Assembly (NCBI GenBank): GCA_963971425.1
Contig: OZ020515.1
Coordinates: 13,532,291 to 13,596,290, forward strand
Origin: Bryoerythrophyllum caledonicum
Taxonomy: Eukaryota > Streptophyta > Bryopsida > Pottiales > Pottiaceae
Length of the DNA stretch: 64,000 bases
Direction of reading: 5' to 3'
Part shown: positions 25,850 to 64,000 of the stretch, one piece after another
Layout of the letters: every line of letters begins with the position of its first letter
Numbering within the stretch: the stretch's first letter is position 1
The notes under the pieces: generated by a model
Databases searched by the model: none
What the model was told of the DNA's origin: nothing
What the model saw: the letters and a program-made list of their open reading frames with translations, nothing else
Program-made: the position numbers and the translations under genes

Positions 25850-26329
25850 CAGCCAACGCCGCACGCAGTGCACCCACCGTTGTCGTTGTGTGCGCGCGCT
25901 CGCTCTCTATCTCTCTCTCTCTTCGTCCTCGTTGCGGCGTGGAATTTCACCCTTGGCGCCGTTTCAGTCTTTTGCGGAGGTGCGGTGTCGAGGCAGCGCG
26001 TCTTTTCTGGCGCCGTCGTTATTGGTACCGAGTCAGGGTTTGTTTGTGAGGCCCGGGGGGCGGGTGTTGTGCGTGAGGGGGCAGGGCTAGGGTTTGTTGT
26101 TTTGGGAGGTGCGATCTGGGGGTTTGGAGGGGTGGTAGGGTTTGGCTGATTGTTTTGTTTGTGTGTGTAGAAATCTGGCAGGGGAGTGGATGCTGGCGGC
26201 GCTCATGGAGAGCGATGGGGTGTGGGAGCGGTGTTGGAGGCGAAGCTGGTGAGGGAGGGGATGTTGTGGTTCTAGGTTTTGGCCTGGGGATGGAGTAGAG
26301 GTAGAGTGGTGTCTGTGTGGTGCGGAACG
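25850..26329 (+). promoter_or_regulatory. GC-rich 5' region and leader of the TPS gene
   Basis: A pyrimidine tract with CTCTCTATCTCTCTCTCT (25901-25922) is typical of plant core promoters and leaders. GTGTGTGTAG at 26161-26170 looks like a splice acceptor, so a 5'-UTR intron is plausible; its donor is not clear. Long overlapping open frames on both strands here come from high GC and are not supported as genes. Confidence 0.45.
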
Positions 26330-29274
26330 ATGGTGTCGCGGTCGTATAGCAATCTGCTGGATCTGAATGAGGACTCCACGATATCCGGCGACTATGTAGT
26401 AGGTTCGATGCGGCGGAGCGGCAGCCGCGGTATGCCGCGCGCGATCTCCACGGGGGGTTTGCATGGCGGGGAGAATTACGACGACGACAGGTCCGTTGGG
26501 CGCCAGGAGAGCGTCGGCTCCGAGGCCTCGGTGCTCACGGAGGAGCATCGCATGCTAGTGGTGGCGCACATGTTGCCGCTGAACGCCAAGCCGTCGCCGG
26601 ACGGGTACGTGTTTGACTGGGACAAGGACTCGTTGCTGTGGCAGCTGCGCGACGGATTGCCGGATGCCATGGAGGTCATTTACATCGGGTGCTTGAAGGT
26701 GGACGTGGACGACTCGGATCAGGACGAAGTTGCCGACATGCTGCTCCGTAATTTCGGTTGTGTGCCCGCGTTTCTGCCGCCGGATCTGAAATCCAGGTTT
26801 TATCACGGGTTTTGTAAGCAGATGTTGTGGCCGTTGTTCCACTACCTGCTGCCTTTGAGCCCCGAGCACGGCGGTCGCTTCAATCGCGCGTGGTGGCAGG
26901 CGTATGTGTCTGTGAATAAGATCTTCGCCGACAAGGTGATGGAGGTGATCAGCCCCGATGATGACTATGTGTGGGTGCATGACTACCATCTCATGGTGCT
27001 GCCTACATTTTTGCGCAAGCGCTTCAATAAGGTGAAGCTGGGGTTCTTTTTGCACAGCCCGTTTCCATCGTCGGAGATTTATCGGACGCTGCCCGTGCGC
27101 GATGAGATTCTGAGGGCGCTTCTTAATGCGGATTTGATAGGGTTTCACACCTTTGATTACGCGCGGCATTTTCTCTCGTGTTGCAGCCGGATGCTAGGCC
27201 TGGATTACGAGTCGAAGAGGGGGAACATCGGATTAGAGTATTATGGCCGCACGGTGGGGATTAAGATCATGCCTGTGGGGATTCACTCGGGCCAGTTCGA
27301 TGCGAGCCTGAAGATGGCGGACACCAAGTGGCGGATTGGTGAGCTGAAGGAGCAGTTCAAGGGGATGACGGTTTTGCTCGGGGTGGACGACATGGACATA
27401 TTCAAAGGCATCGGGTTGAAGTTTTTGGCTATGGAGGAACTTCTCAGGCTACATCCCCAATGGCAGGGGAAGGTGGTGATGATACAGATCGCTAATCCAG
27501 CGAGGGGCAGAGGCAAGGATGTGTTGGAGGCTCAGAACGAGGCCCACGCGATTCGTGACAAAGTGAATGAGGAGTATGGGAATGAGCAGTACCAGCCCAT
27601 TGTTTTAGTGGAGAGGGCTGTGCCATTGTACGAGCGCATTGCGTATTACACAATCGCAGACTGCTGTGTGGTGACGGCGGTACGTGATGGTCTTAACTTG
27701 ATACCGTACGAGTACACTGTGTGCAGAGAAGGTGCTCCGCTGTTGATCGACTCTGCCAATTATCCTCATGAGTCGCAATTGAAGAGAAGCATGTTGATAG
27801 TGTCGGAGTTCATTGGGTGTTCGCCGTCTTTGAGCGGTGCCATTCGAGTGAATCCTTGGAACATCGAGATGGTTGCTGAGGCTATGAACAGCGCGATCAC
27901 AATGAAAGAGCATGAGCAGCATTTGCGCCATGAGAAGCATTACAAGTATGTGGGCACCCACGATGTTGCTTACTGGGCGAGGAGCTACATGATGGACTTG
28001 GAACGAACGTGCAGTGATCACTCCAGGCGTCGGTGTTACGGGATCGGTTTTGGGCTGGGTTTTCGGGTGGTAGCTTTGGATCCTAGCTTCAAGAAGTTAC
28101 GGACTGAACTTATTGTGGCCGCTTACAAGAAGAGTTCTTGCAGAGCTCTGCTTCTGGATTACGATGGAACTGTGATGCCTACGTCAAACAAGGAGAGTCC
28201 CAGTCCGGAGGTTTTGGAGCTTTTGAATACGCTTTGCAGTGACCCTAAGAATGTTGTGTTCATTGTAAGCGGGCGGCCGCGCGAAAAACTTGAAGAATGG
28301 TTTGCTCCCTGCGAGAACCTAGGTCTTGCTGCTGAACATGGTTATTTCTACAGGTAATAATCCGTTTTTCTGCTTAGGGTTCAGGGGATTTGGGTAATGA
28401 TTTTTGGATGCTTCTCCGCTTCTACAGTCCATTCTCGGTATTTGTAGCCTGACTGAATCTGCTTCCTACTATCTGGAATTGTTCACAGGTGGCGACGGGA
28501 TTCAGAATGGGCAACATGCAGGTTTCAGAGTGTGTCAGAATGGGATCGATTCAATGTCATCGACCGTGAACCGTCCGTGAGCTTTGAGTGGAAGCTGGTG
28601 GCACAGCCGGTCATGGAGCTTTATACAGAGTCAACTGATGGCTCGTACGTTGAGAAGAAAGAGAGTGCATTGGTGTGGCATCATCGCTTTGCAGACCCTG
28701 ACTTTGGATCTTGGCAAGCAAAAGAGTTGCAAGATCACCTTGAAAGTGTTTTGGCTAATGAACCTGTCACGGTCAAGCGTGGCGCGCAAATTGTTGAAGT
28801 TACACCACAGGTATGTAATGGAGGAACAAAACTGGTGCCAATGGGTCCTAGTTAGGGATTGCTTTTTTCTGGTAGAAGGTATTAATACAGCAACAAAGAC
28901 GAAAAAGTGTCTATACCAGGCAAGTGATGTGTATTTCCTTTTCTGCATCGCAGGGGGTGAGCAAGGGAGTCGTGGTGGAGAAATTGCTCTTGATGATGAA
29001 GAGGGAACATGGATCCTTGCCAGACATGGTGCTGTGTGTGGGAGATGATCGATCAGACGAGAACATGTTCGAGAGCATTGAGGATCTCATGAGCGAGGCT
29101 CCTTCTGCAGAAGTATTTGCTTGCACAGTGGGTCAAAAACCCAGTAAAGCCAAGTACTATTTGGATGATGTTGTGGAGGTGATCCGGATGCTACAAGGAT
29201 TGGCAACTGCATCTAATCCGGGGTCGGCCTCATCACTTCCTGCGCTTGCTGATTTCTCATCACTTCATATTTAG
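26330..29274 (+). CDS. TPS: Class II trehalose-6-phosphate synthase/phosphatase-like protein
   Basis: Exons 26330-28353, 28489-28810 and 28954-29274, with GT-AG introns of 135 and 143 bp, give 888 residues, the usual length. The start MVSRSYSNLLDL is the family's typical N-terminus, so it is preferred to the in-frame codon at 26279. The glycosyltransferase-20 domain fills about residues 60-560 and ends with VRDGLNLIPYEYTVCR, a class II (TPS5-11 type) form. The phosphatase-like domain has LLLDYDGT (about 607-614), SGRPR (about 647) and GDDRSDEN (812-819). Class II proteins are cytosolic and mostly regulatory: they modulate SnRK1 and sugar signalling and usually lack measurable synthase activity. 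Two introns at these sites match other plant class II genes. The gene looks intact. Confidence 0.95.
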
Positions 29275-44368: not shown

Positions 44369-44376
44369 GTCCGCAC
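44369..44376. repeat. Left 8-bp target-site duplication of the hAT
   Basis: GTCCGCAC directly outside the left terminal repeat; the same octamer follows the right end at 56450-56457. Eight bases is the hAT hallmark. Confidence 0.95.
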
Positions 44377-44384
44377 CAGGGTTG

Positions 44385-44470
44385 TCATAACGGGCGAGTT
44401 GAGGTGATCGGACGGGACAACCGGACGGGCGGTCCGGACGGCACGGACGGACGATTCGGACGGATTGCCC
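44385..44470. repeat. Left subterminal CGGACGGGCG repeats of the hAT
   Basis: Four to five variants of CGGACGGG(CG) lie just inside the left terminus, for example ACCGGACGGGCG near 44420 and CACGGACGGACG near 44441. The same words occur at the right end. Such repeats are usual hAT transposase binding sites. Confidence 0.7.
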
Positions 44471-44559
44471 GAAGTGCGCCCAGTAATTTTTTACAAGTAA
44501 GAAATTTTTACTGTGATCGCCACGTCACTTACGGACGTGTGACGCCACCGTGGCACTTG

Positions 44560-44663
44560 GGCGGGGACGTCTCCATGAGGGGCGGGGACGTCACCATGAG
44601 GGGCGGAGACGCCTCCCATGGGGCGGGGACGTCCCCGCCCCTCATGTAGGCGTCCACGCCCCT
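44560..44663. repeat. GACGTC palindromic island 1
   Basis: About five copies of GGCGG(G/A)GACGTC with inverted partners, including the palindrome GGCGGGGACGTCCCCGCC near 44618-44638. It lies between the left end and the 3' end of the transposase gene. Confidence 0.75.
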
Positions 44664-44942
44664 GCATCATTGAGCGGATAGGCCTTAATGTTTGGAAGAA
44701 AAATCAGTTTATTACATTAAAAAGTTTCACGATAAAACAACAATTCCCTAATCTCATACTTCCAAACCAAGTAATATCTTGTAGTTATCTAAGAAACCTT
44801 TTTCTCTCCTAGCTTCTTCTATGAATTATCACAACTCTCTTCATTTCGCATACATATATGTAGTTACTTTTCTAGTCCTTTAATTATTCAAACGGCCCGA
44901 TCTGCACACTCCTTCGGTGGACAGGCCACCCATAACCGCATC

Positions 44943-47900
44943 TCAAAGGACGATATCATCATCATCTGGTGCCTCATCGCAATCTGGACGGTTGTCATCA
45001 TCAGCTCCTTCACCGCTCTCATCTGAGAATTCTCCATTGCTACCATCCGTAGTCCAAAAGCCCTCTATTTCAGAGTTGTCATTGCGAAGCTCTACGACTG
45101 TTTCACCATCGCAACGCGAGCGTCTGAATCTCTTTTGTCGATGTGCGTGAGGATCATCGCCATCGGAATTTATGGTTGGGCGGCTGGTAGGACGAATTTC
45201 TCGATTCGGAACAACAAACGCTGGAGTTGTTAAAGAGCGTCCTGGAACATACGTGTCCAAAAACGGTTGTACAACCACGTTCGGATCTCGTGCCTCTATT
45301 CCAAGGAGGGGACGTCTACGATGCCTTAAGGAGGATGCTTCGCCGTTGTTTCTTCCTTCACAGCCTCTAGCCGCTCCACGGCCTCTAGACCCTCCACGAG
45401 CATTAGTCCTTGCACTCGGTTGTATATATTGACCCATTGGATGAAGAGGCGTCCTTGTAGCGGCCAGAGGGGGTCTGCCATTTCTGGTAGTAGTAGCGGA
45501 AGTGTTTAGACCCATCCCCTCAACGCCTACAATTCGTTGAAAAGGTCCATACATGGCATTCGCCGTTCTAGGAGAAGAGGAATTCCGGGAAGGCGGCGTT
45601 GGTACATTCTGGTCGTTGATAACCGTAGGCAACACCACAACCGGAGATGGTTGTGGCTCAAGGTCCTCTGTGAATGCAAAAGCATCATCGGGGTCTACAT
45701 ATTCCGGGTCAAAACGCTTTCGCTGATTAACAACCCTTTCATTTCTTCGAGTCGTCCCTACAATTGTTGTGTTTACAACATTTGCGTTAGAGTCTCCTTG
45801 AACGACTCCAGTGCTATGAAATGATGCACCCATTCCAATAGGGCTCTCTTGGCCATACCGGTTTTCAACCGATGCTTGGTTGTTTCGAGTCGCAGTATTT
45901 ACTGCGTTCTCTCCCGCTCCGTTGTTGTCGCCATCTCCATTTCCACCACCATAGTCTGATGGGGAATTGTCCTCGTCGCGAACATTCCCGACATTGCCCC
46001 CCCCCCCCCCCCCCGTTTCAGGCTCTTCAAGGTTAGTCACATTTGAGATGTCGCTCTCTGAGGAAGTAGACAAAGGTTGCACTTCATGAATGCCCCCATT
46101 TTGATGAAAATGAGGTGAAGGACTGCAACGAGGACTTTGATTCCAAGGTCCCCAACGACCTTGAGCCAATTCTTCTTCGACATCGTCATCATCTCCGTAA
46201 TAGTTTCTCGTTTCCTCAAGATGATCGGCGCCTTCCGCCCAAAGATTAGGGTGTCCACGGTACTCCAGCCGAGTGCGGGGAGTTGCCATATTGTGCTCAT
46301 CCTCTTCCTCGGCTATCAACACATCAAATTCACGATTAGGTTCACCCACCGGGACCGGCCCTAGGGCATCTGGGTCGGAATCCTCCGAGTGAATATTCGC
46401 ATCGTACCATCGAACGGGATCGGCCCCCGGTCTTTGTTGAAGGCATCGGCTATTGGTATAAATATACACCAATGACGCAGCCTTTTCTGCCGCTAATCGA
46501 TTTCGGCTCTTGTTGTGGACAAATGAGTACATATTCCAGTTCGTTCGCAAGAGCTAGCTGAACACGTAAGGGCTAGAATACCAACAGCTATTTTAGACAA
46601 TGCCTTGTTTGCGATCCTGGCCCACCATTGGTGGAGTTGAAGCTTTGTCTGGCGGATGTCAGATGCCTCGATAGGGCCATATGGTCCTGTGCCCTCCTCG
46701 TACTGTGTTAACTCATATTGGACGTCCTCATATGAGACTTCCAATACGTCCATCATTTTGCGAACAACCCGATTCAATGCTTTTTGTGCGATTCCGTCAG
46801 CCCTAAGCGCCATATTATCCTTGAGGTACGGATTCAAAAGAGCCCCGGCGTAGTGAACATCGATAAAAACCATTTGTCACCGGGCATCAAAAGATTGCTC
46901 AAGAGTGGATGCTATGTCAGCTCGTAGAGTAAAGGGTGACTCTCTCAAAGAGTACACGTGTTCTCGCAAATTATGCATCACGAGCCACGCACGACCCATG
47001 GCTCGTTCGCGGCCATCAAACACACGCAATGCCTTCAAAACATCCCTAGTCATGTGCACGTAATTCTGACATCGTTGCCAAAAGGCCACATCTTCCATGG
47101 TAAGGACCACATTACGCGCTGCGGTTGCTGCTTGCTCTCCATTTTGTTTGTTCCGTTGGGTTGCAAAGTAGTTTACAACACGGGGGTGGTCTTTCAACTG
47201 CTCCAACACTCCTTTGAGTCTCACCAATCGATCCAACATAAAGAAATTACAAGCAAAGCGGGTTTCAGTGGGCACTACAATATGCAGGTTTGGACTCAAC
47301 CCACGAAGTGTCCCCATTGTCGAATGATGGTTTCTAATATATTTGCACAATTTCTTTGCCCTCTCTATTAAATCTTTAAATTCTTGGACCTTCGCCCAAT
47401 CTTCCAACATGAGATCCAATGCATGTGCCATGCATCCCTGCTTGTGAATGTGTGGGTATGTGAGAATAATATCATCCATCGCTCCAAGCATGTTGGGAGC
47501 ATTGTCTGTACAAATCTGTGTCACATTCTTGGAACCCACCTTCTCAATGTAAACTTTCACTTGGTCCGCTATGTACTGCATGGACTTCTTCTCACCACTG
47601 GTGTCTATGCTTCCCAAGAATACGTCACCAGTGGGGCACGACATCATTAAATTCATGAGGGGCCTCCGATGGACATCATCCCAACCATCCGTGCATATCG
47701 ACACCCCATAATTCTTGATGGCAAAACCAACTTTGGCTTCACTCTCTTTCTCAATTTGCAACCTCTTAGGTTCAATCAATCTAGTCCTCAATTGGTGATA
47801 TGTAGGAGGAGTGTACTCAAACTTTGCCACAAATGTCGCCCTCACTGCAACGATGAACGCTTGATTTCGCGCCACATTAAAAGGCACATTCGCTTAATAG

Positions 47901-48421
47901 AAAAAAGTCGCCCACTTCTCATCAAGTTCCTTCCTCTTTGAATTGTTAAAAGCATCAAGCATCCGTTGTTGATGTAGTTGCCCAGATCTAGTGGAATTCG
48001 AGGCGGTAAGACCACCCGACACATGTTCGCGGTCGTTTCCTTCAGAGAGATTAGCCACTCCTTCCTGAGGCCCACTTGTTACCCCACCCGCCACATTATT
48101 TTGAGCGTCGGATTGGCTTGAAGTGTCAATAGTTGGTGCCCTCGATGGACCACTCGGGCCTGAATCTCCGCCATACATGTCCCCGCCCGTCATTCGTTGC
48201 GGAACAATGTTTCCACAATTGGCAAATCGACTTCGCACATAGGGAGGTAGGCTACGACAAATCGACCTCTCTGACTTGGCGCCGTATCCAAAGTGAGCGA
48301 ACGCACGCTCACGTTTGTAGCTAAAAGTATAGTTACAGAAAACACAACTCACTTTGCCCCCGTTGTCACCAAAATTGTACTAAGGTTCCCATTCTTTTGT
48401 TTGCTTCCTTTGACTTCCCAT
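44943..48421 (-). pseudogene. hAT transposase with BED finger and long disordered tail
   Basis: Minus-strand reading of about 1,160 codons starting at 48421 (MGSQRKQTKEW). Domains: BED-type finger (CVFCNYTFSYKRERAFAHFG), then the DUF659-like catalytic region with ICTDGWDDVHRRPLMNLMMS (first aspartate), CTDNAPNMLGAMDD (second) and QGCMAHALDLMLEDWAK. The C-terminal hAT dimerisation part follows (LHQWWARIANKALSKIAVGILAL, SASSCER), then a ~400-residue Gly/Asn/Pro-rich acidic tail to 44943. Three in-frame stops (near 48382, 47895 and 46878) and one frame change (near 46560) disable it. The tail contains an 18-C run (45997-46014) coding polyglycine. Confidence 0.88.
45997..46014. repeat. Eighteen-base C homopolymer in the transposase tail
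   Basis: A pure C tract on the plus strand that codes polyglycine on the minus strand. A slippage hotspot; its length may be mis-sequenced. Confidence 0.8.
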
Positions 48422-48718
48422 TGCATTCACGGCTTATGCCAAATAATGTGCAAGTCCCGTCTAAGCCAAAATCCGGGGCTACTTACAGTATAGAATCAAG
48501 TGAAAATATGAGGTCTGATAGCGCTGGTGCACTGCTTGAACCAATTTTTACATCACCTCAGCCGCACACCAGTGCCGCCTGCCACCCAAGTAGACTCGCA
48601 AGGAGCTCAAACTGAATTGAGGTCCAAGGGATAGAGGCCAAGGTGACAAGCGTGAGGACAATCGGCCCTCTCCGAACCTTTTATACACGAGCCAAGAACG
48701 GGTGGGACCTGAAGTGCC

Positions 48719-48915
48719 AAGGGCGGGGACGTCTCCGTGCAGGGGCGGGGACGTCTCCGCCCTGCCCTGTTGTGGGGAGACGTTCCCGCCCCTGCCCGGG
48801 TAAGGGCAGGGACGTCTCCGCCCTTGCCCGGGTAAGGGCGGGGACGTCTCCGCCCGACCAGGGCAGGGCGGAGACGTCCCCGGCCTTACTTGGGCAGGGG
48901 CTGGGACGTCTCCCT
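48719..48915. repeat. GACGTC palindromic island 2
   Basis: The longest island: seven or more GACGT(C/T) cores, each flanked by GGGCGG and CCGCCC arms and separated by TGCCCGGGTAAGGGC spacers, so the unit is itself an inverted repeat. It lies between the transposase start and the truncated RING paralogue. Confidence 0.8.
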
Positions 48916-48919
48916 CACC

Positions 48920-49190
48920 CAAGAGAAGGAGGCCTTTGGGGCATTTTGGGTGCTTAGGCACTCCTCCTCTCCATGAAGAGGGTGGAGGTTTTAATATAGA
49001 GTACCTTATTTTTGGTTCCGACAAGATTGCGACGCACTTAAAATTAGAAGCACGTTATGTCTACGAAGGAAGGCTTTCGGGAAAGTACTACTTTTGTCCT
49101 TTGACCGCATGCTCTCCAATAATGAACACCTTTATTAGCTCCCTAATAAACCAAGTAGTGGATAGCATGGGAGCTATGCAAGTCCCCATC
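48920..49190. repeat. Internal hAT duplication, unit 1
   Basis: The 270 bp after island 2 (GCACTCCTCCTCTCCATGAA, then TTTTTGGTTCCGACAAGAT and CCTTTATTAGCTCCCT) recur after island 3 at 50310-50516. Together with the adjacent RING-family coding sequence this shows that island, spacer and gene were duplicated as one segment inside the transposon. Confidence 0.75.
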
Positions 49191-49353
49191 CATAACGGGT
49201 AGTATTAGCCTCTAGTAGAATGTAATGTGCAAGTTCTCTAAATAAATTGTACCATTACAAACAAAAAGGATATTTAAAACCATATAATGTTTAGAGCAAA
49301 AGTATTGTTCACAAAATTGATTTGCTACGTCCTAAACCTTTAAATACTCCTAG

Positions 49354-50030
49354 TCAATAGTAACGTTGGTGAAGGGCTCGTTCGGTCCTCCTCAGCCTAC
49401 CACGTGCTTGTGCCTTTTCGCTCGCGACTTGGACGTGGGTTCCGTCGGAGTCATCATCTGAACTTGACGTGTTAGTATCATAGCTAGGTGTGTCGTCCAT
49501 CACAGTCATGAACTTGCCCAATCCACGTTCCGGATACTTGCGCCATCCCATTGGAATTATTCCATTTTCAGGGCGAGGAATTTTTACCTTCCCCGGCATC
49601 GACTTCAAAGTGGATCAATCCACTATCTTGCCCAACTTCACCTCCGCATGAACACCCCGGGCAATGAAGAGATTTACTTCGTTGCGTTGACGAATGGGAC
49701 GTCATACAACACTTGGTAAACTTCGATGCATCGGTTTTTAAACGCCTCGTCGATGCAATGTTTCAAGTTTGCCTTGTGGAAGCGCCGGTGATAGTTGTGT
49801 CGCACCTCTGGGAAAGCCTTGTCGATGTGGCACCACTCGATGTAGTTCGCGCAATCATCAAAACTCCATGGCTCCACTACGTCCTGCCAACCTCGAAAAG
49901 CCAACTTCTCGGGATTTCGAAGAACGTGCAACCGCTTCCGATGGGCGTTCCCCGCTCTTGCACGGGTCTTGTCACGCTCCTCCTTGGCCAATTGTCTGGA
50001 TGAAGACATGGTGTGCACGTGTGAATGCAA
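49354..50030 (-). pseudogene. Truncated paralogue of the hAT-borne RING protein
   Basis: Two frames (50030-49674 and 49608-49354) match the first ~220 residues of the RING gene at 51433-53718: KRLHVLRNPEKLAFRGW, EPWSFDDCANYIEWCHIDKA, HNYHRRFHKANLK and the IPMGWRKYPERGLGK block. Coiled coil and RING are absent, and there is a frame change and a stop between the two pieces. It is a partial duplicate left after internal duplication of the transposon. Confidence 0.8.
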
Positions 50031-50156
50031 AATTCTGGCGTGGATGGATGAATGAGACCTCGCACAACGCCCACATCCAGCTCAATGAAGAGATGGTGGA
50101 TAGGAGTATGCGAGGTAGGGACAAATGAGGTCCCCCTCCATTAAAATAGTAATCCG

Positions 50157-50240
50157 GTGGGGGCGGAGACGTCCCCACCCCTGCCCGGGTATGGGGCGGA
50201 GACGTCTCCGCCCCACCAGGGCAGGGCGGGGACGTTTGCT
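50157..50240. repeat. GACGTC palindromic island 3
   Basis: Three GACGTC/GACGTT cores with GGGGCGGA and CCGCCCC arms, followed by a G10 run near 50249-50259. It lies upstream of the truncated paralogue and begins duplication unit 2. Confidence 0.75.
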
Positions 50241-50309
50241 TGTAAATTGGGGGGGGGGTTCGTCCCCACAAAACTTTCCAAGGAGGCGTTTGAGGCCACT
50301 CTTGCTTGG

Positions 50310-50516
50310 CCGAGGCACTCCTCATCTCCATGAAGCGGGTGCACAATTAAATATGGGGTGATTTATTTTTGGTTCCGACAAGATCCTAATGCACTTAAAA
50401 TAACATGCAGATTATGTCTCTCCCTAGTTCTAGGGACGAAGGCGAAATGGAAAGTACAACTTTTGTACTTTGACGGCATGCTCTCTAATAAGGAACACCT
50501 TTATTAGCTCCCTATT
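50310..50516. repeat. Internal hAT duplication, unit 2
   Basis: Counterpart of 48920-49190, diverged by substitutions and small indels. The similarity is interrupted at about 50517 by a dispersed repeat and briefly resumes at about 50963 (AAGTAGTGAATAGCATGGGA). Confidence 0.7.
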
Positions 50517-50539
50517 AGTTTTGGAGCAAACATAAGAGT

Positions 50540-51240
50540 GTAGAAAATTATTTCCTTCCAAATAAAACAAAAATTCCTTGTCTTTAGTGGAAATTAACGC
50601 TTCAACTCAAGTCAAAGATTTTCACATATTGCCAAAAATATAACGGGCAAGGTACCAAAAACAAAAACGTCTTACCACATAAAACTTAGAGATTTTAACT
50701 TTTTATACTTTTGATTTTTTCCACAACAATATGTGGTGTAGACCTTCATATTGACCATAAATATACATCAATCTAAAACATATCAAGTATCTAAAAACTA
50801 AAACGTTACTTGCCCATTTTTTAGCTTCCACTACTAGTATAGTTGACTTGAATAAGATACACCCTTTTTCTACCTCTAACAATTGGTGTATGAGGAACTA
50901 ACATCATCCTAAACTACCATTAGTAATGGATTTAGGCCTTATCTAGTGCAAAAATTTGATACCAAGTAGTGAATAGCATGGGAGCTATGCAAGCCTTTCA
51001 ATCCGTGTGGTTAAAATTTATGAAATTTTGTGGAGACATTAACAAAGAAGTATTTATTGTGATCCTACGGTTAGATGTAGAAATAAAAAGGTTTTGTCTC
51101 CATTCTTAGGCATTATACTATAGCCTCGCAGTTTTGAAGTGTTTTTGGTGCAAAAATGCCTTGGTCCTTTAGGGATTAAAAATGTTTGGAGGTTTAAAAC
51201 TTGGTCCACACCATTTTTTTTAATACAAACGCACAAATCC
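50540..51240. repeat. Dispersed ~0.7-kb repeat, copy A (inside the hAT)
   Basis: It shares with copies B (58200) and C (61140) the ordered blocks AAGTCAAAGATTTTCACA, CCACATAAAACTT, CACAACAATATGTGGTGTA with CTTCATATTGACCAT, and AATCCGT with ATGAAATTTTGTG and GATCCTACGGTT. All copies have the same orientation. AT-rich and non-coding, with no terminal structure recognised. Class unknown. Confidence 0.65.
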
Positions 51241-51432
51241 TTACGAGGCTTAAGTACATCCATAATCACACGGATTAACACCACTATTATCAAGTAGAAT
51301 GTAGACAGTACTATTCATATATTTTTTTAGTATCCATAATATAATACGAAAGTGGAAAAAATACATGAAACGCTAAAAGATGAAGCATTGTAAGAAAATT
51401 GTCTCTTGGCACCGCAAAAACAAAAAATACAC

Positions 51433-53718
51433 CTAGTCAATATTCGTCAGGCTATTAGTAGTGCCACTCGCCCCTGCCTCGTTGTCGTGTGCCCCTACGT
51501 GCATAGGGAGGTCTTCATCTGAGCCCAATACAAGTCTACGAGACGCCGATCGTGTTCTCCTCGCTGGTCCATCTTCATCCAACACGGCCCTTTGGATTTG
51601 GGATTGCATGAGCTGGTCGAGCGCTTGCCGTGTCCCTGGACTGTGTACATCGAGCAAGAAGTCGATTCCGTCATTTCGGAAAATTTCTTTCCACTCTGAT
51701 TTCGATAATTGTCTTAGTTCTTGCGGGTCTGGTTGGTCAACGTCGTGAGAAATGCGATCCCCGTTATCGTCTGTGATGCAAACTCCGTCAACGGCCCACA
51801 ACCATTGCCGTGGATGAGGTCCGAAACAAAATTGCTCCCCGTTCTCGTCTCAATGGCCATTAAAGCATTGGTAGAAGAAATTTCGTTTTTCTTGACCGTA
51901 TTTGTCCTTTAACGGGATCAAATTCTTGCACACCCGGACAATCTGCTCCGGGTCCCTTTCCCAACCCCACTCGTTTGAGAGGTGCATCTTATCCAACCAG
52001 TGCATCTTCAGTTTCCAGCTCCACACCAAATCTTTTTCCCACATATGTGATTGATCATGAGCGTTCGTCACATTGAACTCCCAATGCGGGGGCATGTATG
52101 GAACTAATCCAAAAAGTTCGTACAATCGCTCGTGAAAAGGGGCCTTGCACAATGAGCACCGCCGGCATACAACCATCAAGCTAATCAAACAAAATGGATG
52201 GTACAAGTGCTCACAAGTGCCTAGATGCATCCCACCTTCTGGACCAAATGGATTTAGACAAATTGAGCAAGTCGTACCGTCGGATACAAAGCTCGAAGGT
52301 TGTGGCCACAATAACATGGGTTTGCCCTGATGATCGAGGGTAGATGAAACCTCCTTTTTGAAATCCCATTTGTAACGGGACCAATCGATGGTTGTTTGCC
52401 CACCAGCGGTTTTCACCATCGCCATTTCATCCATCTTGAAAAGATCATCTACGAGGGCCCACGATGTCAAACCAAACACCCTCTCCTGGTTGTTTTCGGT
52501 ATAGTTGTTGTTGATTTTTTGGAATTCCGCCACCAATTGTCGGGACCGATCGACCGTGAAGACGCATGCCAACTTCCATTGATAGTAATGTTCTACCAAC
52601 ACATCCAAGCGACTTTGTAGTCTTGAATTCTCTTCAAGCGCTTTAGCGAGCTCTTTGCCGCCGTCACCCCCCACACCCTCTTCTTTGTTGACCATAGCTT
52701 TGTCTGCATTGGTGAGGGCCTTATCAAACGACAATGAATCGTCTTGGGTTGACACGTGTACAAGCACTTCTTCTTCCCGTCGTGGATTCCGATCTTCTGT
52801 GGTCATTGTACTAGTTTGAAGGGCAAGTCGGAGCTCCTCCATATCACGTCGTTGCTGGTCAATAACAATGTTTTTATCATTAACATCAACTCTCAACTTG
52901 CGAACCTCATCGCGCAATGACAATAGTTCTGTTGTCTTCCCTTCCAATTGGTTCAGCAAGGTTTGGATAGTGTTGGCAAAAATAGCACCAGTAGAGGCTT
53001 CTAACGTTCGATCAACAACCGCGGGGGATTGTACCTGAGCCCCAACTTCATTAACGGTATTGTTAACGACTACGTTAACCGTTTGTTCCGCCCTCCTTCG
53101 TTTGGTGCGCGCTTGTGTCCTTTGGCTCCTTGTGATTGGAACGTGGGATCCGTCAGAGTCTGTATCCGTATTTGAGGGATCGGTCTCGTACGTGTCGACC
53201 GGTTCAGTCTTCGTCATCGATTTGCCCAATCCGCCTTCTGGATACCTCCGTGTCCCCATTGGAATCAATCCATTCACCGGAGAAGGAACTCTTATGCTAT
53301 CTCCCATGGCTTTCAAGGTGGACCAATCCACCTTCTTGCCCAACTTTACCTCCGCATGGACACCTCGCGCAAGGAAGAGATTTACTTTGTTGCGTTTGAT
53401 ATAAGGGATGTCGTACAAGACCTGGTTTACTTCAATGCACCGATTTTTGAACGCCTCGTCGGTGCACTTCCATAAATTTGCCTTGTGAAAGCGTCGGTGA
53501 TAATTGTGTCGCTCCTCCGGGAAAGCCTTGTCGATATGGCACCACTCAATGAAGTTTGCGCAATCCTCGAAACTCCATGGCTCCGGAACTTCTTCCCAAC
53601 CTTTAAAAGCCAAGTTAACAGGATTCCGAAGCACATGCAACCTCTTCTGCTGCTTGTTTCCCGATCATAGTCGACTCTTGTCTCGTTCTTCTTTATTCAT
53701 TTTTACCGGCGTGGCCAT
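51433..53718 (-). pseudogene. hAT-borne RING-H2 and coiled-coil protein
   Basis: One minus-strand frame of 761 codons starting MATPVKMNKEERDK. Order: a novel N-terminal domain (about 25-160; KRLHVLRNPVNLAFKGW, FIEWCHIDKAFPEERHNYHR), an acidic Ser/Thr linker with a basic KRRR cluster, a coiled coil (about 250-310), a second helical part, then a RING-H2 finger (about 480-535). The finger runs CSIC, CEH, HPFC and CSLC, that is C-x2-C...C-x-H-x2-H-x2-C...C-x2-C. A conserved C-terminal extension follows. Two TGA codons (codon 18 and 51850-51852) interrupt it; both would be single C-to-T or G-to-A changes. RING-H2 proteins are usually E3 ubiquitin ligases. Role in transposition unknown. Divergent from the kinase gene, 440 bp apart. 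Confidence 0.75.
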
Positions 53719-53888
53719 GGGTGGAGAAAATCTGAATAATATATGTGATGTGAATGGATGAAGTCCTCACACGACGCCCACAACCAACTCAATTAAGAGG
53801 TGGATGAAGAGGGAGTATGTGAGGCGGGGACAATTAGAGGTGTCCACGATATTATATAGCCGATAGACGAAGCACTGGTCTAGGGTCC

Positions 53889-53945
53889 CCGGGCAGGGGC
53901 GGAGACGTCCCCGCCGTGCCCAGGTAGGACGGGGACGTCTTCGCA
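53889..53945. repeat. GACGTC palindromic island 4 in a divergent promoter
   Basis: Two GACGTC cores with GGGGCGGA and CCCCGCCG arms in the 440-bp space between the divergent RING (minus) and kinase (plus) genes, so in position to serve both promoters. A TATAAATAGGGG at about 53963 fits a TATA box for the plus-strand gene. Confidence 0.65.
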
Positions 53946-54158
53946 AAAGAAACCCTACACCATATAAATAGGGGACTTTTTGTCCTTATTCTCTGCCAAG
54001 TCCACTCCCTAGGCCTCACGTGTCAGTTCGCTTTGCGGCCTGAAAGTGAGTTTGGTGGGTGATCGGGCTTGGCCCATTTATTGTACCCAGACTCTTTGCG
54101 GTTTTTTTAAAACTATCAACTTGGAATTTCGACCACGGTAGGGAGTTGACAATCACAT

Positions 54159-55738
54159 ATGGCGGGAGAAGGAAGTAGGTCGATGGAGAAGCGCCAAGTA
54201 TTTATGGACTTGGATGATGTTGATGAGACGGTTCTTCCGTCCACCAACACGGAGTTGACTTCGGGATCATTGAATCCGTCGTCATCGAGCGGGAAGAGGC
54301 GGAAGAAGTCACCAAATCCAGATATGCCCCCGCACGAATACATGGTTGAATGTAGAGGGATTGCCGTCGAGTTTTACAAGCGTCGGACAACAGGGGCGTT
54401 GACGAGGAGCTATCTGACCCACAACGAAGAGGGATACCACAAGTTGACGGTTGACATGCGACACGAATTAATGTCAAACCTTGATAAATCTGAGAAATTT
54501 AATAATTTCTCAGATTATTGGTTGCATTCGGAGTGGTTGGTCACACAAGTGACTGCACTGACCACCAATATCGTTGCGAACTGGTGTTACGTCACAGGGA
54601 AGAAGGAGGATGAGAGCACCTAGAATCTCGAGGAGCGCGCACTAGTGGCGAAGATGAGGATGATCCAGGGCTTCGTTCAACAGTACTCTTCTTCCCGTAA
54701 GAAGAAACTAGCTCCTTGGAAAGCGACTATTGAGGAGCAAATTTTGGCTCACTGCGTTGGTGGAACTTTCAAGTGGCTTGAAAGTTGCGCTAATGTGATT
54801 CCAATGCCAGGGCAGAGCGCGGTGGGTGGCTATGGGGCTGTACGGAAGGTGATGATAACCAAATTGGAAAACATTCCAAGTTGGATTTACTTCGCCGGAA
54901 AGACTCTGACCAACACCAATGAGAGGGAGAAGCGCCGAAACATTATCAACGAGGCTGGAAGGTGTCCGGTAGTGCATCCAGGGATCATTAGACTTGCGTA
55001 CATCCACCCGAAAACTATGGAAGGGTACACGCTCTGGTGGAATGGGGGATCTCTGGCTTCTTTTTGGTCCAAGTTTGACTCGAAAGTGGACGAAGCATTG
55101 CCATTTGAACGGATTGAGATGCATCCGAATACCGGGTTGTCAATCCAAGAGCTTCGGTGGGTAAAAACTTACCGCCAAAATCGAGTGAACCTCGCGCTAT
55201 CATTGCTTGTCATTGTGGGAAAATGCCACGATGCAAATTATATACACAATGACATCTCTCCATCGAATGTTTTGCTCCACTTTGATGAGTGGAAACCCGA
55301 TACGGTGTACATCGGAATTTGCGATTGGAGGCTTTCTAGTCGGGTTGTGGAGAATGAGCCATCAAGGTATGGTTATCAATTCAAGGAGGAGCTTCAACAA
55401 GAGAGAGAGCGGCGACGGTTTGTGGCACCAGAACTGTTCTATAATTTTGGGCCGCAGGGCTCTACCAACTCGCTTGAAGTCATGCAATGGTCACACCTCT
55501 ACTCCAGACAGCAGATGCATTTGCGGTGGGTTGGATTTGTGAAAAAATTTGGAAAGAAGATTGGGACACTTCGTATTTCACCAGCAAAAACACGGAGCAA
55601 TATGTAAACCTGAAGCTAAAACTTACAGCGTTGCAAAAACAACTGCTCGAAGAACGGTCTTCTGTACCAGATGTTTTAGACACATTAATGAAACCCCCCC
55701 ACAACTGGACTATGCTTGTATGTTGTTACCGACAATAG
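54159..55738 (+). pseudogene. hAT-borne protein-kinase-like gene
   Basis: About 526 codons from MAGEGSRSMEKRQ. The N-terminal ~155 residues are of unknown type with a KRRKK basic patch. The kinase fold follows: glycine loop GGYGAV (about 223), lysine in FAGKTL (about 244), catalytic loop HNDISPSNVLL (about 362), ICDW at the DFG position (metal-binding Asp kept, about 388), FVAPELF as APE (about 423) and DAFAVGWI for subdomain IX. Catalytic Lys, Asp, Asn and Asp all appear present, with atypical HND and CDW. One TAG (54621-54623) and one frame change (near 55490) disable this copy. A captured host kinase or an element-specific one; target unknown. Confidence 0.75.
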
Positions 55739-56149
55739 TTTTTTGTTAATTAGCTGCATTAGTTTCGCATGTGGTGGTTAAATAGGCAATACGGCATCTT
55801 CGTAGAAGAATATGTATAATTGGCAATTGCCATATGTTATATTTTAATCAAAATTGGATACGTCCAAATCTTAAATTCTAAATCCAAGATTTGCATTTGT
55901 TCAAGTACAAATAACAATTGATACACTATTGATACACTAAATGTGCACAAGTGAAAGAAATAAATTTATTATTTCTACAAAAACTGATACATAGTATAGT
56001 AAATGGCATTTAGTGTCCGGTTATGTCACTACACTAAGTGCCTCATTTGCAATTGGTGTATGGGTTCACATTTAGTGTATACTACAGTAAACATAAATTT
56101 TAGTTTACCAATATAGTGTCAATAGTTAAACCCTATTAACTAACTCATG
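55739..56149. other. Spacer downstream of the kinase gene
   Basis: AT-rich, no gene. It probably holds the kinase 3' UTR. Confidence 0.5.
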
Positions 56150-56240
56150 AAGGGGCGGAGACGTCCTCGCCCCTGCACTAGTAGAGGCGGAGACGTCCCC
56201 GCCCCTTTGTGGGCAGGGGCGGGGACGTCCCCGCCCCACC
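56150..56240. repeat. GACGTC palindromic island 5
   Basis: Three GACGTC cores with GGGGCGG(G/A) and CCCCGCCCC arms between the kinase gene and the right terminus. It mirrors island 1 at the left end. Confidence 0.75.
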
Positions 56241-56369
56241 TCCCTCTTGCCATTAGTCCCCGATCCTTCTCAAACATGATCCTCTCCAATGTGGCAGCTA
56301 TGTGGTGCCAACATGGCTGCCACGTCGCCTGTTTTTACCTAGTGGATAAGTCAACCCTCAGTTGACTTA

Positions 56370-56428
56370 CCCGGACGGGCGAGAGCTCTACCGGACGGGC
56401 GAATCGGACGGACGGGCGTACCGGACGT
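56370..56428. repeat. Right subterminal CGGACGGGCG repeats of the hAT
   Basis: Four copies of CCGGACGGGCG or close variants in 60 bp, just inside the right terminus, matching the left end's words. Confidence 0.75.
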
Positions 56429-56449
56429 CCCTCTAGTATGACAACCCTG

Positions 56450-56457
56450 GTCCGCAC
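56450..56457. repeat. Right 8-bp target-site duplication of the hAT
   Basis: GTCCGCAC, identical to 44369-44376. Undiverged, which supports a fairly young insertion. Confidence 0.95.
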
Positions 56458-58199: not shown

Positions 58200-58880
58200 C
58201 TTTTGCACTACACAAGATCTAAATCCAATACCATCGTGTTAAGCATATTGTTAGTTCTTATAGGAAAAATAACATATTAATCCAAGTCAATTATTTTCAC
58301 ACATTGTCACACATTTTCGAGGAGAGTACCAAAAAACTTCTACCTTTCCACATAAAACTTTGAGAGCTTCGTATGATCCACTTTTAATTTTTCCTGCGAC
58401 ATTATTTGATGTAAACCTTTGTATTGACCATTTGGATTCTCATTCCAAACAATATCAAATTCACCAAAAAACATAACGTGAATTGAGAATTTTTGAACCC
58501 CCACTCATTGCACAATTTTTTTGAATATGCTACACCCCTTTTCTAACTCTAAAAATTAGTACATAAAAAATTAACATCATGCTTAACATTATGGTAATTA
58601 ATTGAGACCTTTTATAGTGCAAAAATGTGACACCAATTGAAGTCAAAGTCTGCTGATCCAGAAAACGCAGGGAAGAAAATTAACCTTTTCACTACTTCAA
58701 ACATTATAATCTTTCGATCCGTGCGGTGAAACTTTATGAAATTTTGTGAGCATATTACTTAATAAGTCATTATTCAGATCCTACGGTTTAACATATAAAA
58801 AATAGTTTTTTTTTTCCCTTGCTAATTGCACTAAAATAAGCATTTTTTAACAATATTTGGTTGAATATTCTCTACATCTT
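58200..58880. repeat. Dispersed ~0.7-kb repeat, copy B
   Basis: Same ordered blocks as copies A and C: AAGTCAATTATTTTCACA (58281), CCACATAAAACTTTGAGA (58349), GTAAACCTTTGTATTGACCA (58413), GATCCGTGCGG with ATGAAATTTTGTG (58715) and GATCCTACGGTTTA (58777). Non-coding. Confidence 0.65.
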
Positions 58881-61139: not shown

Positions 61140-61850
61140 TTTCCTTGATGATGTCAAAATAAGTTCTTGTCTTTAGTGAAAAATAACATATCAATCTAAG
61201 TCAAACATTTTCACACATTGTCACTCGTTGTTGGGTAAGGTACCAAAAAAACTTCTTGTTTTCCAAATAAAACCTAGATATCTTTTTATTTTTCACTTTT
61301 TATTCTTTCCACAACAATATGTGCTGTAAACCTTCTTATTGACCATTTGGACTACCAATCTAAAACATATTAAGTTCACAAAAAATTACAGTTAGAATTA
61401 ACAAATTCCGAACTTCCACTCCTTGTACAGTTGTTTTGAATATGCTACACCCATTCTCTACCTCTAAAAATCGGTGTACAAGGAACTAACATCATGCTTA
61501 ACAAGATGGTTGTGGATTTTGACCTTCTGTAGTGTCAAAATTAGATACCAAGTGAAGTCAAAGTCTGCTGATCCACAGCACACAGGGAAGAATATAAACC
61601 ATATGCTTGACTTCAAACACTATTATCTTTCAATCCGTACCGTCAAAGTTTATGATTTTTTTGTATATATATTACTTAATAAGTCTTAATTGAGATCCTA
61701 TGGTCAAAATTAGAAATAATAGTTTCCATTTCATGTTTTGTTCATTGCACTCGAATTCAACAATTTTGAAGTGTTTTTGGTGTAACACAGTCATTGTACC
61801 TTCAGGGTTAAAGACTCCGTGCAAGGAGTTCATGCTCTACAAATTCTTAA
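61140..61850. repeat. Dispersed ~0.7-kb repeat, copy C
   Basis: Third copy of the repeat, same orientation: AAGTCAAACATTTTCACA (61199), CCACAACAATATGTGCTGTA (61309), CCTTCTTATTGACCATTTGG (61330), GATACCAAGTGAAGTCAAAG (61544) and TTTCAATCCGTACCG (61628). It ends shortly before the gene at 62031. Confidence 0.65.
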
Positions 61851-62030: not shown

Positions 62031-64000
62031 ATGGAGAGCCGCACGATTCAGACTCGTTCGATACGGCCATACATCCAAAGGGATAATATGCATTCCAATA
62101 GCTCTATGAGGGCCCGATTAATACGAGCAGTACGTGCAAGGCAAATTCAACAGAGATCTATTGGGATCATGACATCTGAATTGGAAAGGGCAGCAGAACT
62201 GCTTTCTGAAGCAAAGGATGTGGTGGGCTTAGCACGCAGGGAGCATGCATTCAAAAGTGGCATGGAATTGAATGGGTCGAAGTTGTTCCCATTCGAGGTG
62301 GCGGTGCGTATCACTAGGGTAGATGATGCATTGCATTGGACCGGAGAGATTGTAGGAGAACGCCTTGGCATGTGTGTGGGCTTGATCATTTGTTGGCATC
62401 GGTCTTTGCTACGTGTAGTGGCTATAGAACCTGATATCACATGTGTCCATGGTGACAATGGATCACAGATAGCGCCTACACAAGTGATGGCCCCAGAATT
62501 TGATTTTTCTATGTTCATCAACACACCAGGATCCACCGAGAGGTCTCGACGCAGTAGTCATGCTTCAAACGCCATAGATGAAAATTTGCCGTTTTCCCAA
62601 TCTACTCCCTCAAACATCCAAGATTTGTCCCATGTAGATGAATTTGCTTATGTTAGACCAGCACGTCGTCCCTATTCTATGCAGAATAGGAGAAGGAGAG
62701 ATTCAAGAGAGCCATCATTGACGGAAGCTGCACGAGCTAAGGTATCGCTTAGAAGCGTGCAAATTGCAATGGAACAAGGAGGATGCAAACGCAATTGTTT
62801 GACGGACGTTCCAACAAGGTATCTATTGGATATGCGATATAATGCATGGGCTAATGAGTTTTCAGTACAAAGTACGTGGATGAGACAGATGCTGGTTTCT
62901 TTTTACACAAGGACGGAAGGAACTCGTCGAGACAAGTTTGTAACAAAGTTAGATGGGAAAGAAGTTTGCAATGCTTGCTACGCTCTTGGGGTTGGATATT
63001 CACAGAGGCGCTTTGAGCAATTGAAGAAGGACTGTCTAATATATGGAAGAGTGACATCGATTCACAGCAATACCCTTTCAGATCCGATCAGAGAGAGTAC
63101 TAGGATGTCTGCGGTAGAGGCTTGCTGTAAATTGTTTGTCGATGGAGGTGGTTGTCCTCAACCTCATCGTGTATTCGCCGTAAGAGTGACAACAAAGTGG
63201 TGCCTGTCATTCTCCTTCTAATGAATACAGCGAAATTTCATGTATTCAATTATGTGAACGAGGAGGTCAAGAGAATTTGTAATGGCGAAACCATTCTATG
63301 AGTTCGTTCCAGAGGATGTGGCGCATGAAGTATCCCCACGTTCAGGTACCTCCATTCTCGAAATTCTCAAAGTGTTGTCATTGTTGGAAGTATAAATGTG
63401 CCATGGAAGGAACCACCAATGCGGATGCAAGAATAAAGATAAAGGAATTGTTTATGTTGCATCTACGCAACCAGATGGAAGAACGTAGGCATTATTGGAT
63501 ATTCAAGAGGTCGTGTTATATTAGCCCTGAGTTGTATATGTGCATCATAGTGGATGGCATGGACCAAAACACGACCATGGTACCGAGGATGCGGCAGACT
63601 GTGAAGAACATTGAATACCGGTTTGTGAAGACCCATCTGTGTGGTGTTCTAGTACATGGTATTGGTTTATATTGCGACGTGTGGTTTGGAACTCACCACA
63701 AACACGATAGCAACCAAGTCGTGAGTACATTGTTGTACGTGATTGGAGATGTGCTGCGGAGGAAGGGCTTTTTGCCACCGACATTGCGAATCCAGGCGGA
63801 CAACTGCACACGCGAGAACAAAAACATTTATATGTTTGCTCTATGTGCTACATTGGTGGGATTGGGGTTTTTTCAGAAGGTGGAACTATCTTTTCTTATA
63901 GTGGGCCATACACACGAAGATATTGATCAACGCTTCAGTTGTATATCAAATACGTTGAAGAGGTCGGACGTGGACTCGTTGAAGGAAATGGTGAGTCTTA
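62031..64000 (+). pseudogene. DUF7869-type transposon-like gene, cut by the window end
   Basis: The first frame runs from MESRTIQTRS at 62031 to 63221; an acceptor-like TTTTTCAATAG precedes it. A later frame is open from about 63283 to the window end. The first part has a basic N-terminus and a CNACYALGVGYSQRRFEQLK block like the small cysteine module of this family. The second part has CCHCWKYK, then DGMDQNTTMVPR, LRIQADNCTRENKN and VGHTHEDIDQRFSCI. The acidic QADN and HTHEDID blocks recall an RNase-H-like nuclease fold, and these proteins are abundant and repeat-like in many eukaryotes. Whether the two frames join by a short intron or by decay is unclear. Function unproven. Confidence 0.55.

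Follow-up and report, generated by a model that had tools for sequence, protein, structure and literature searches.

A dead copy of a multi-gene hAT transposon carrying kinase and RING-H2 genes in Bryoerythrophyllum caledonicum

The usual view of plant cut-and-paste transposons is that they encode little more than a transposase, with one or two helpers at most. The VANDAL/VANC anti-silencing system of Arabidopsis is a multi-gene DNA transposon with VANC-bound arrays (PMC5735166), and the fungal TET/JBP-carrying hAT7 and alpha-kinase-carrying IS3EU are DNA transposons that combine a transposase with accessory enzyme genes (PMC12730594). A hAT of Pseudocercospora fijiensis of about 9.5 kb carries a histone H3 gene, and Gulliver of Chlamydomonas (7,144 bp, as quoted in the same paper) is, like the element described here, a large hAT of the green lineage (PMC6710886). 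ToxhAT, a 14-kb transposon with passenger genes that was once called a hAT, was rejected as a precedent because its authors reclassified it as Tc1/mariner-like, with a TA duplication and 74-bp ends (PMC12506042). A first, sequence-only reading of the present locus had taken hATs to carry normally a transposase only, which is too strict because fungal hATs with extra genes are in print (PMC12730594, PMC6710886).

The locus lies in a 64,000-nucleotide stretch of DNA that was analysed as a whole (the window), and comprises a transposase gene and three accessory genes between hAT ends (Table 1). The window also contains a TPS gene, which begins with a motif known from land plants. It resembles hAT7 and IS3EU in having an extra enzyme gene beside the transposase, the alpha-kinase gene of IS3EU lying opposite to the transposase. 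It differs from hAT7 in its 8-bp rather than 7-bp duplications and in the TET/JBP dioxygenase found there, and from IS3EU in that its kinase belongs to PF00069 and not to the alpha-kinases; the words 'ring' and 'ubiquitin' are absent from the main text of the paper that describes both (PMC12730594). Neither the 7-bp or 6-bp duplication nor the TET/JBP or alpha-kinase gene of TET+ hAT7 and IS3EU was found here, and TET/JBP gave no Pfam match in the ten window frames scanned. With the P. fijiensis hAT the element shares large size, a DUF659 domain, 8-bp duplications, hundreds of elements, an extra gene and C-to-T decay; that hAT carries one captured, mostly truncated host gene, in copies inactivated by RIP (PMC6710886), whereas the accessory genes here number three, keep a constant order and bear signs of selection, and a second family was found. 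The literature covered (listings and the starts of abstracts, with subscription papers and Repbase outside it) yielded no hAT in which kinase and RING genes occur together, and the main text of one review (PMC13317346) contains none of the words 'hAT', 'kinase' and 'RING'.

Table 1. Positions of the features of the hAT element in the window.
Feature	Position	Strand	Basis or relatives
Whole hAT element, 12,073 bp	44377..56449	.	end scan and alignment of full copies
Target site duplication, left, GTCCGCAC	44369..44376	+	
Terminal inverted repeat, left, 13 bp, CAGGGTTGTCATA	44377..44389	+	
CGGACGG repeats, left subterminal, 5 sites	44409..44463	+	
GRGACGTCYC palindrome array, left subterminal	44563..44641	.	
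hAT transposase gene (DUF659, dimerisation region, long acidic tail)	44883..48424	-	tblastn match span
GRGACGTCYC array upstream of transposase gene	48720..48918	.	
NDOM, short RING-less paralogue of RING protein; frameshift and stop in window	49354..50009	-	
GRGACGTCYC array upstream of NDOM	50157..50235	.	
Dispersed repeat inside element	50569..50967	.	relatives in window at 58283-58636 and 61158-61553
RING-H2 protein; two in-frame stops in window copy	51433..53718	-	Pfam, alignment, other copies
GRGACGTCYC array between divergent RING and kinase genes	53893..53938	.	
Protein kinase; one stop and one frameshift in window copy	54159..55738	+	Pfam, alignment, other copies
GRGACGTCYC array, right subterminal	56149..56251	.	
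CGGACGG repeats, right subterminal, 4 sites, orientation as left	56372..56415	+	
Terminal inverted repeat, right, reverse complement of CAGGGTTGTCATA	56437..56449	-	
Target site duplication, right, GTCCGCAC	56450..56457	+	

The perfect 13-bp ends and perfect 8-bp duplication noticed in the sequence-only reading were confirmed at both boundaries. When the whole window was scanned for 13-bp inverted ends that pair perfectly and are flanked by identical 8-bp duplicates, one pair only was returned, and chance ends were rejected because that sole pair is the element's own. DUF659 (PF04937) was recognised by Pfam in the window transposase (E 1.5e-37), although the gene has two in-frame stops and one frameshift. 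The hAT dimerisation domain (PF05699) was under its cut-off in this broken frame (E 0.053) and is clear in the transposase relatives P0052 (1.2e-07) and P0053 (3.1e-09), in both of which the two domains are over cut-off; a MULE match (PF10551) in the window was weak (E 0.047) and under its cut-off. The transposase alignment has conserved columns, which may include the catalytic DDE residues. The assignment to hAT is based on the 8-bp duplication, the 13-bp terminal inverted repeats (5-27 bp in hATs; PMC12506042), DUF659 with the dimerisation domain, and movement as a unit, which was seen for one copy.

All genes of the window copy are interrupted by in-frame stops and/or frameshifts, and the copy is not autonomous, because every gene is broken. 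Readthrough or another genetic code was rejected as an explanation for the stops, as stop-free RING, kinase or transposase frames occur in other copies. Aligned with the other full copies (seven in all), the window copy has no private segment longer than 80 bp. The window element is a dead member of a hAT transposon family that has many copies and several genes.

Ten further copies were fetched from the source genome (437 Mb), a sample biased by having been picked for a RING frame without stops. Six of them have paired ends with 8-bp duplications (three perfect, three with one mismatch); the six further full copies measure 12,041-12,635 bp, have differing target duplications and are, together with the window copy, 96.8-98.0% identical. 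The remaining four (C2b, C10a, C886 and C619) have no paired left end in the stretch read, which for C619 stops at the contig end. NDOM, RING and kinase genes were present in all ten and the transposase gene in seven, with constant order and strands: transposase (-), NDOM (-), RING protein (-), kinase (+). The arrangement is identical in all seven full copies, window included, at different sites, and in none of the seven are all four frames open. Copy C15a (12.25 kb) sits inside an element of a second family, of which another copy (L023) provides the empty site; the latter has one target copy and is identical to the C15a flanks at 154 of 161 positions. One transposition unit of about 12 kb with hAT ends encodes four proteins, and its copies moved as units.

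The same arrangement was apparent from coordinates alone. Among best-scored rows, the RING-to-kinase spacing is 2,693-2,884 bp in 32 of 59 RING rows, the distance to the right end is 1,994-2,242 bp from the kinase (17 of 40 right ends) and 4,703-4,999 bp from the RING gene (18 of 40), and a listed RING or kinase gene lies on the expected side at 21 of 42 transposase loci. These rows are the best 59 of 3,823 first-look candidates for RING, the best 82 of 2,308 for the kinase, the best 42 of 3,200 for the transposase, and the best 40 of 628 and best 40 of 637 for the element ends; a further listing holds the best 68 of 2,194, and the lists include a few apparently duplicate contigs (e.g. C847/C851 and C108/C614). 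Eight right ends were read from the 16 without a listed gene, one of which is the window's own: six hold RING and kinase genes, and two (L029 and L031) are deletion derivatives that have kept their ends and perfect 8-bp duplications and have lost transposase, RING gene and kinase. Six of the 21 transposase loci without a listed partner were read, from the far side; in two (L039 and L043) the 7 kb that were read contain no RING and no kinase, and L044 has RING pieces and no kinase in its stretch. Many copies at different sites share one gene order between hAT ends with 8-bp duplications, which was the test posed in the sequence-only reading, and kinase and RING genes are not peculiar to the window copy, even though two of eight right ends read do lack the set. 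Its proposal that the extra genes are a stable part of a multi-gene hAT is upheld by the shared ends, duplications, genes, order and spacing. Its further suggestion, that they help the element by phosphorylating and ubiquitinating host factors or the transposase, is more tentative, with signs of selection in its favour.

The kinase of other copies has 526 aa and consists of an N-terminal domain and a PF00069 kinase domain, which scored 1.1e-06 in the window (under cut-off) and 3.5e-11 in the relative P0011 (over cut-off). The residues that we take to be the conserved Lys, Glu, catalytic Asp, Asn and metal-binding Asp are invariant in a 13-row alignment, with HND in place of HRD and DW in place of DF; the kinase of copy C15a has lost the metal-binding Asp. 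The RING protein of other copies has 761 aa, comprising an N-domain, for which no Pfam family was matched, a coiled coil, a RING-H2 and a C-terminal domain. The RING-H2 was under Pfam cut-offs in the window (best E 9.7e-05), as it was in the relatives P0001 and P0004, but the eight ligands of a C3H2C3 RING are legible in the alignment. The window frame and the majority of rows have them intact, P0009 running off-frame at this point, and the RING has matches in the PDB (best 7.3e-07). The RING protein is probably an E3 ubiquitin ligase. Protein matches identified relatives of the transposase, RING protein and kinase elsewhere; the transposase and kinase alignments found no relative among viral contigs and genome contigs, and RING protein P0001 found none among viral contigs. 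One kinase relative, P0013, carries a Bacilli protein name in a MAG record.

The transposase and two other genes named in the sequence-only reading were all found, but its 'partial duplicate' is a fourth conserved gene, decayed in the window copy. This gene, NDOM, encodes 218 aa in other copies; it is stop-free in 8 of the 10 fetched and differs from the RING N-domain by dN 0.23 and dS 1.01. A decayed duplicate was rejected on the grounds of these open frames and this constraint. Across the genes, variants shared between copies have an N/S of 1.18 versus 2.04 for singletons, the neutral expectation being 2.10-2.35, and there are fewer amino-acid changes among shared than among single-copy mutations (pooled Fisher p = 0.007). 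The contrast is also seen for the kinase alone (p = 0.033, one-sided) and is not significant for RING, NDOM or transposase singly. These values indicate that the genes were under apparent constraint while the element family was active.

The second family has 13-bp hAT ends of its own (CAGGGTTGTCTAT), a duplication (GTTGCGCG) and NDOM, RING and kinase genes in the same order. Its proteins are only 31-36% identical to those of the first family, and the acquisition of the ordered set must therefore be old. No transposase relative was found in the second-family element (0 of 36 query proteins), and its mobility is therefore inferred from its ends and duplication. A third kinase group is 67-71% identical to the second kinase.

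The palindrome GRGACGTCYC occurs 13 times in the element and 0 times in the remaining 51.9 kb of the window. Its clusters lie near the left end and ahead of the transposase gene, NDOM and the RING/kinase pair in all seven full copies, and near the right end in six; no right-hand array was detected in copy C6a, which has an assembly gap of 200 N at that place. Clusters of CGGACTG take the place of GRGACGTCYC in the second family, in arrays of CAGTCCGCGG. In both families, GC-rich arrays of a family-specific motif lie near the ends and precede genes. VANDAL elements likewise have dense, family-specific arrays of short motifs in non-coding DNA, upstream of genes and in terminal regions, but are Mutator-like, whereas the transposase here is that of a hAT (PMC5735166). 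The family-specific arrays in non-coding parts, known here from sequence alone, are thus a trait in common with VANDAL/VANC; no Pfam match naming VANC was obtained in the frames scanned, and Pfam may hold no VANC model. Instead of a means of steering, the arrays could be sites bound by the transposase, or could have arisen as by-products when GC-rich repeats expanded. We know of no kinase or RING pair in VANDALs.

The shared copies, the empty site, the signs of selection and the second family make it nearly certain that the hAT lineage is stable and multi-gene, its additional genes being an accessory module and not passengers. As the set recurs in numerous copies and again in the second family, the extra genes look like the element's own helpers. 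The explanation that we favour, with a probability of roughly 0.7, is that the window holds a dead copy of a multi-gene hAT whose accessory proteins act in trans on the element via the arrays. NDOM, the RING protein and the kinase would act jointly on the element itself: the N-domain that NDOM has in common with the RING protein, or else a partner, would recognise the family's palindrome arrays, both those at the ends and those that precede genes (DNA binding being a guess). There the putative E3 and the kinase would modify host silencing factors or the transposase and so permit transcription and mobilisation of the element. NDOM, which lacks a RING, may compete with, or tune, the full RING protein. 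The module would most likely serve to control how the element itself is expressed and silenced, although an expression or anti-silencing role, taken on its own, is given somewhat less than even odds. More tentative is the full proposal of a hAT lineage with its own signalling module (possibly a TE-restricted kinase branch, a RING protein and its RING-less counterpart), in the same order in at least two, and probably three, distant element families of one genome, steered to family-specific palindrome arrays at ends and promoters, and acting in trans in self-regulation or anti-silencing by phosphorylation and ubiquitination. To our knowledge, no comparable system of self-regulation by phosphorylation and ubiquitination is known for DNA transposons.

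Alternatively, the accessory module might control the transposase directly, the kinase and RING protein acting on its activity, stability or cell-cycle timing, with the arrays or subterminal repeats as its binding sites and no anti-silencing involved. Arrays are also present close to both ends, where the transposases of hATs have subterminal binding sites; the CGGACGG repeats are no further than about 90 bp from the ends, and the long acidic tail of the transposase relatives could be modified. However, palindrome arrays are also found ahead of genes and are distinct from the CGGACGG repeats, and the second-family element retains NDOM, RING and kinase genes without a recognisable transposase; direct control is therefore doubtful. 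That the genes aid spread in some other way, such as biased transmission or manipulation of the host cell, and not through expression of the element, is unlikely. Pairs of a kinase and a ubiquitin ligase could in principle alter host cell decisions, and there are many ends (628 and 637 candidates at first look, the best 40 of each scored), but self-regulation is favoured because the arrays precede the element's own genes.

It is very unlikely that host kinase and RING genes were acquired once and amplified as neutral cargo, as in a Pack-type hAT. Fungal hATs amplified a captured histone H3 gene in this way (PMC6710886), many of the RING and kinase loci listed are decayed, and the kinase and RING genes are single long frames with no sign of introns. 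Such passengers would be private to one family and without lasting constraint, whereas the ordered set is also present in the divergent second family, shared variants are depleted of amino-acid changes, and the divergence of NDOM from its parent is mainly synonymous (dN and dS above). Among the best-scored genome matches listed, repeated families and no single-copy donor gene were seen. Separate nested insertions, with kinase and RING genes brought into the hAT by other mobile elements, can be dismissed for the window element's family, because all seven full copies at different sites have the same arrangement, the empty site corresponds to one unit and no further CAGGGTTGTC end lies inside the element. 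A small dispersed repeat is nevertheless present within it, and nesting of hATs does occur in this genome, as C15a illustrates.

The self-regulating multi-gene hAT would have several consequences. Many genes annotated as 'kinase' or 'RING' in such a genome are transposon genes (at least 82 and at least 59 loci in the source genome), which is a warning for annotation. The transposase-less second family raises the question of whether the helpers work in trans; if they do, such action would let that family, and small NDOM-only deletion derivatives, spread too. How DNA transposons outlast silencing becomes testable, with the arrays as candidate targets and the deletion derivatives as natural controls. 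The retention, over a long period of divergence, of a kinase and of RING and RING-less paralogues in one hAT lineage suggests that some elements may encode their own control circuitry.

The 13-bp terminal inverted repeats and 8-bp target duplication claimed for this element by the sequence-only reading were both perfect, and formed the only such pair in the whole window. The transposase, kinase and RING-H2 genes that it placed between these ends were present, together with NDOM, a short RING-less paralogue of the N-domain of the RING protein, though stops or frameshifts interrupted all four frames of this copy. When 87 related proteins were compared with the window by tblastn, all 158 matches fell within the element. 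A dispersed repeat (71-77% identical) occurs at 50569-50967, within the element, and at 58264-58808 and 61158-61725, outside it; the internal occurrence is also present in other copies of the element.

Features of the window and related loci in the same genome
Feature	Location	Strand	Remarks
hAT element, window copy (first family)	44377-56449		Left to right: hAT transposase (-), NDOM (-), RING-H2 protein (-), protein kinase (+)
Trehalose-phosphate synthase/phosphatase (TPS) gene	26276-28354	+	PF00982, PF02358; start presumably resembles land-plant class II TPS
DUF7869 open frame	63283-63999	+	PF25273, 1.2e-44; reaches window edge; may belong to another mobile element
Weak reverse transcriptase match	6036-6599	+	PF00078, E 0.01, below cut-off; perhaps a retroelement remnant
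Second hAT-ended element (loci L037, L011, L038)	C15:12044416-12066786		First-family copy C15a nested inside
Kinase loci 67-71% identical to the second kinase (examples)	C7:5260066, C9:626902, C12:7501928		Frames up to 949 aa

Further copies were sought in the 437-Mb assembly (894 contigs) that contains the window. The best 40 of 628 candidates for the left 264 bp of the element were 92-100% identical, and the best 40 of 637 for the right 250 bp were 93-100% identical. With frameshifts left out of the counts, 15 of the best 59 RING protein loci (3,823 candidates) had no stop in the matched stretch, 28 of the best 82 kinase loci (2,308 candidates) had none, and 6 of the best 42 transposase loci (3,200 candidates) had none in the main stretch. 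Judged by coordinates alone, spacing was regular: RING to kinase, 2,693-2,884 bp at at least 32 of the 59 RING loci; kinase to right end, 1,994-2,242 bp at at least 17 of the 40 right ends; RING to right end, 4,703-4,999 bp at at least 18 of the 40. A listed RING or kinase locus lay within 20 kb of at least 18 of the 40 left ends, within 9 kb of at least 24 of the 40 right ends and within 18 kb of at least 21 of the 42 transposase loci.

Ten copies were fetched, a sample biased by its selection for a stop-free RING match. NDOM, RING and kinase were found in all ten and the transposase in seven, with gene order and strands constant throughout. Paired ends with 8-bp duplications were recovered in six (12,041-12,635 bp), all at different sites; the duplications were perfect in three (TCGCACCC, GTCTTCGG, GGACCAGC) and carried one mismatch in the other three. 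These six further full copies answer the question of whether other copies share the gene order between hAT ends. With the window copy included, the seven full copies were 96.8-98.0% identical across 11.3-12.3 kb; none had all four frames open, because the transposase was interrupted in each.

As a counter-sample, 8 of the 16 right ends without a listed gene were read, and RING and kinase were present at six. The other two, L029 (2,983 bp) and L031 (4,231 bp), were deletion derivatives whose ends and 8-bp duplications (TCTTGGAC, CGTGACGT) are all perfect. Their right-hand breakpoints are identical, their motif arrays are retained, and the sole gene detected was NDOM, with one stop in each; they are a non-autonomous subfamily. 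Among six transposase loci without a listed gene, three had RING and kinase, one had RING pieces only, and two had neither within the 7 kb read.

The second hAT-ended element measures 10,110 bp (200 N included) without the nested copy C15a, and has 13-bp ends CAGGGTTGTCTAT and an 8-bp duplication GTTGCGCG. It carries its own NDOM and RING, both broken, and its own kinase, in the same order as in the first family but all on one strand; RING and kinase share 31-36% protein identity with their first-family counterparts. Comparison with 36 transposases detected no relative of them in this element or in the adjoining 9 kb on the left. Another copy of the second element, L023, lacks the inner hAT: the site is empty, with one target copy and 154 of 161 positions identical. 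The empty site is direct evidence that the 12.25-kb C15a unit moved as one, and speaks against separate nested insertions of its genes. The second kinase matched at least 49 loci at 79-100% identity (query included), and 19 further kinase loci among the matches listed, only 67-71% identical, probably represent a third element family.

NDOM had been labelled a partial duplicate, a description that did not hold. It is a fourth gene, with a stop-free 218-aa frame in eight of the ten fetched copies (ATG in seven) and the same end residues. Against the N-domain of the RING protein of the same element, dN was 0.23 and dS 1.01; by this divergence, NDOM reads as an old duplicate kept by selection. The second-family short gene is closer to its own RING protein (49%) than to the first-family short gene (34-43%, short stretches). 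This pattern implies either repeated origins of the short form or concerted evolution with the parent gene.

Selection was examined in 8-17 copies per gene by comparing singleton with shared variants. The N/S ratio was 2.04 for singletons (461 N, 226 S), against 2.10-2.35 expected without selection from the observed spectrum, and 1.18 for shared variants (66 N, 56 S; pooled genes, Fisher p = 0.007). The kinase alone gave p = 0.033 (one-sided); the contrast was not significant singly for RING (0.15), NDOM (0.11) or transposase (0.30). The low shared and near-neutral singleton ratios indicate constraint on the genes during the family's period of movement, followed by decay of single copies. Decay in dead copies was mostly C-to-T, strongest at CpG.

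There are 13 GRGACGTCYC motifs in the element and none in the remaining 51.9 kb of the window (mean 0.02 over 300 Markov simulations of the element). In all seven full copies, clusters lie close to the left end and upstream of the transposase, NDOM and the RING/kinase pair; six have a cluster near the right end, where the seventh, C6a, has a 200-N assembly gap. These motifs are absent from the second element, which contains 70 CGGACTG sites instead, clustered close to each end and upstream of its RING and kinase genes, with arrays of CAGTCCGCGG. According to PMC5735166, VANC anti-silencing proteins of Arabidopsis VANDAL transposons bind family-specific motif arrays. The arrays of the hAT families resemble them in layout only, and no VANC counterpart was recognised in the hAT element.

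Relatives of three of the proteins were found in a large protein collection: the RING protein had 10 (35-64% identical, from 8,000 scored candidates), the kinase 41 (25-73%) and the transposase 36 (37-69%). Several are full length and many are in pieces, under the source labels jgi, lgn, ena, ncbi or nr. Aligned, the RING proteins show conserved N- and C-terminal domains as well as a C3H2C3 RING, and a putative coiled coil can be read from the sequence. All 13 aligned kinases retain the ATP lysine and helix glutamate, the catalytic Asp and Asn within HND...N, and the metal-binding Asp, which stands in DW rather than DF. One relative, P0013, a kinase of this transposon family, is annotated in a MAG record as 'protein kinase [Bacilli bacterium]'; the label probably reflects eukaryotic contamination.

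These results show a stable hAT with four genes under constraint and with motif arrays specific to its family. The proposal that the extra genes are stable cargo is upheld by their constant order and strands, their constraint and the recurrence of the set in the second family. The suggestion of an undescribed multi-gene hAT stands in part: no description of a hAT with a kinase, a RING protein and a RING-less paralogue was found in the open-access literature, but fungi are known to have multi-gene DNA transposons, among them hATs that carry an additional enzyme (PMC12730594, PMC6710886). The transposase-less second element fits trans-acting helpers; the NDOM-only derivatives fit them less clearly, because each NDOM frame contains a stop. 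The accessory proteins would most likely work in trans at control regions of the element itself: the targets modified by the kinase and RING protein may be silencing factors of the host or the transposase, and NDOM, which lacks a RING, may tune the RING protein.
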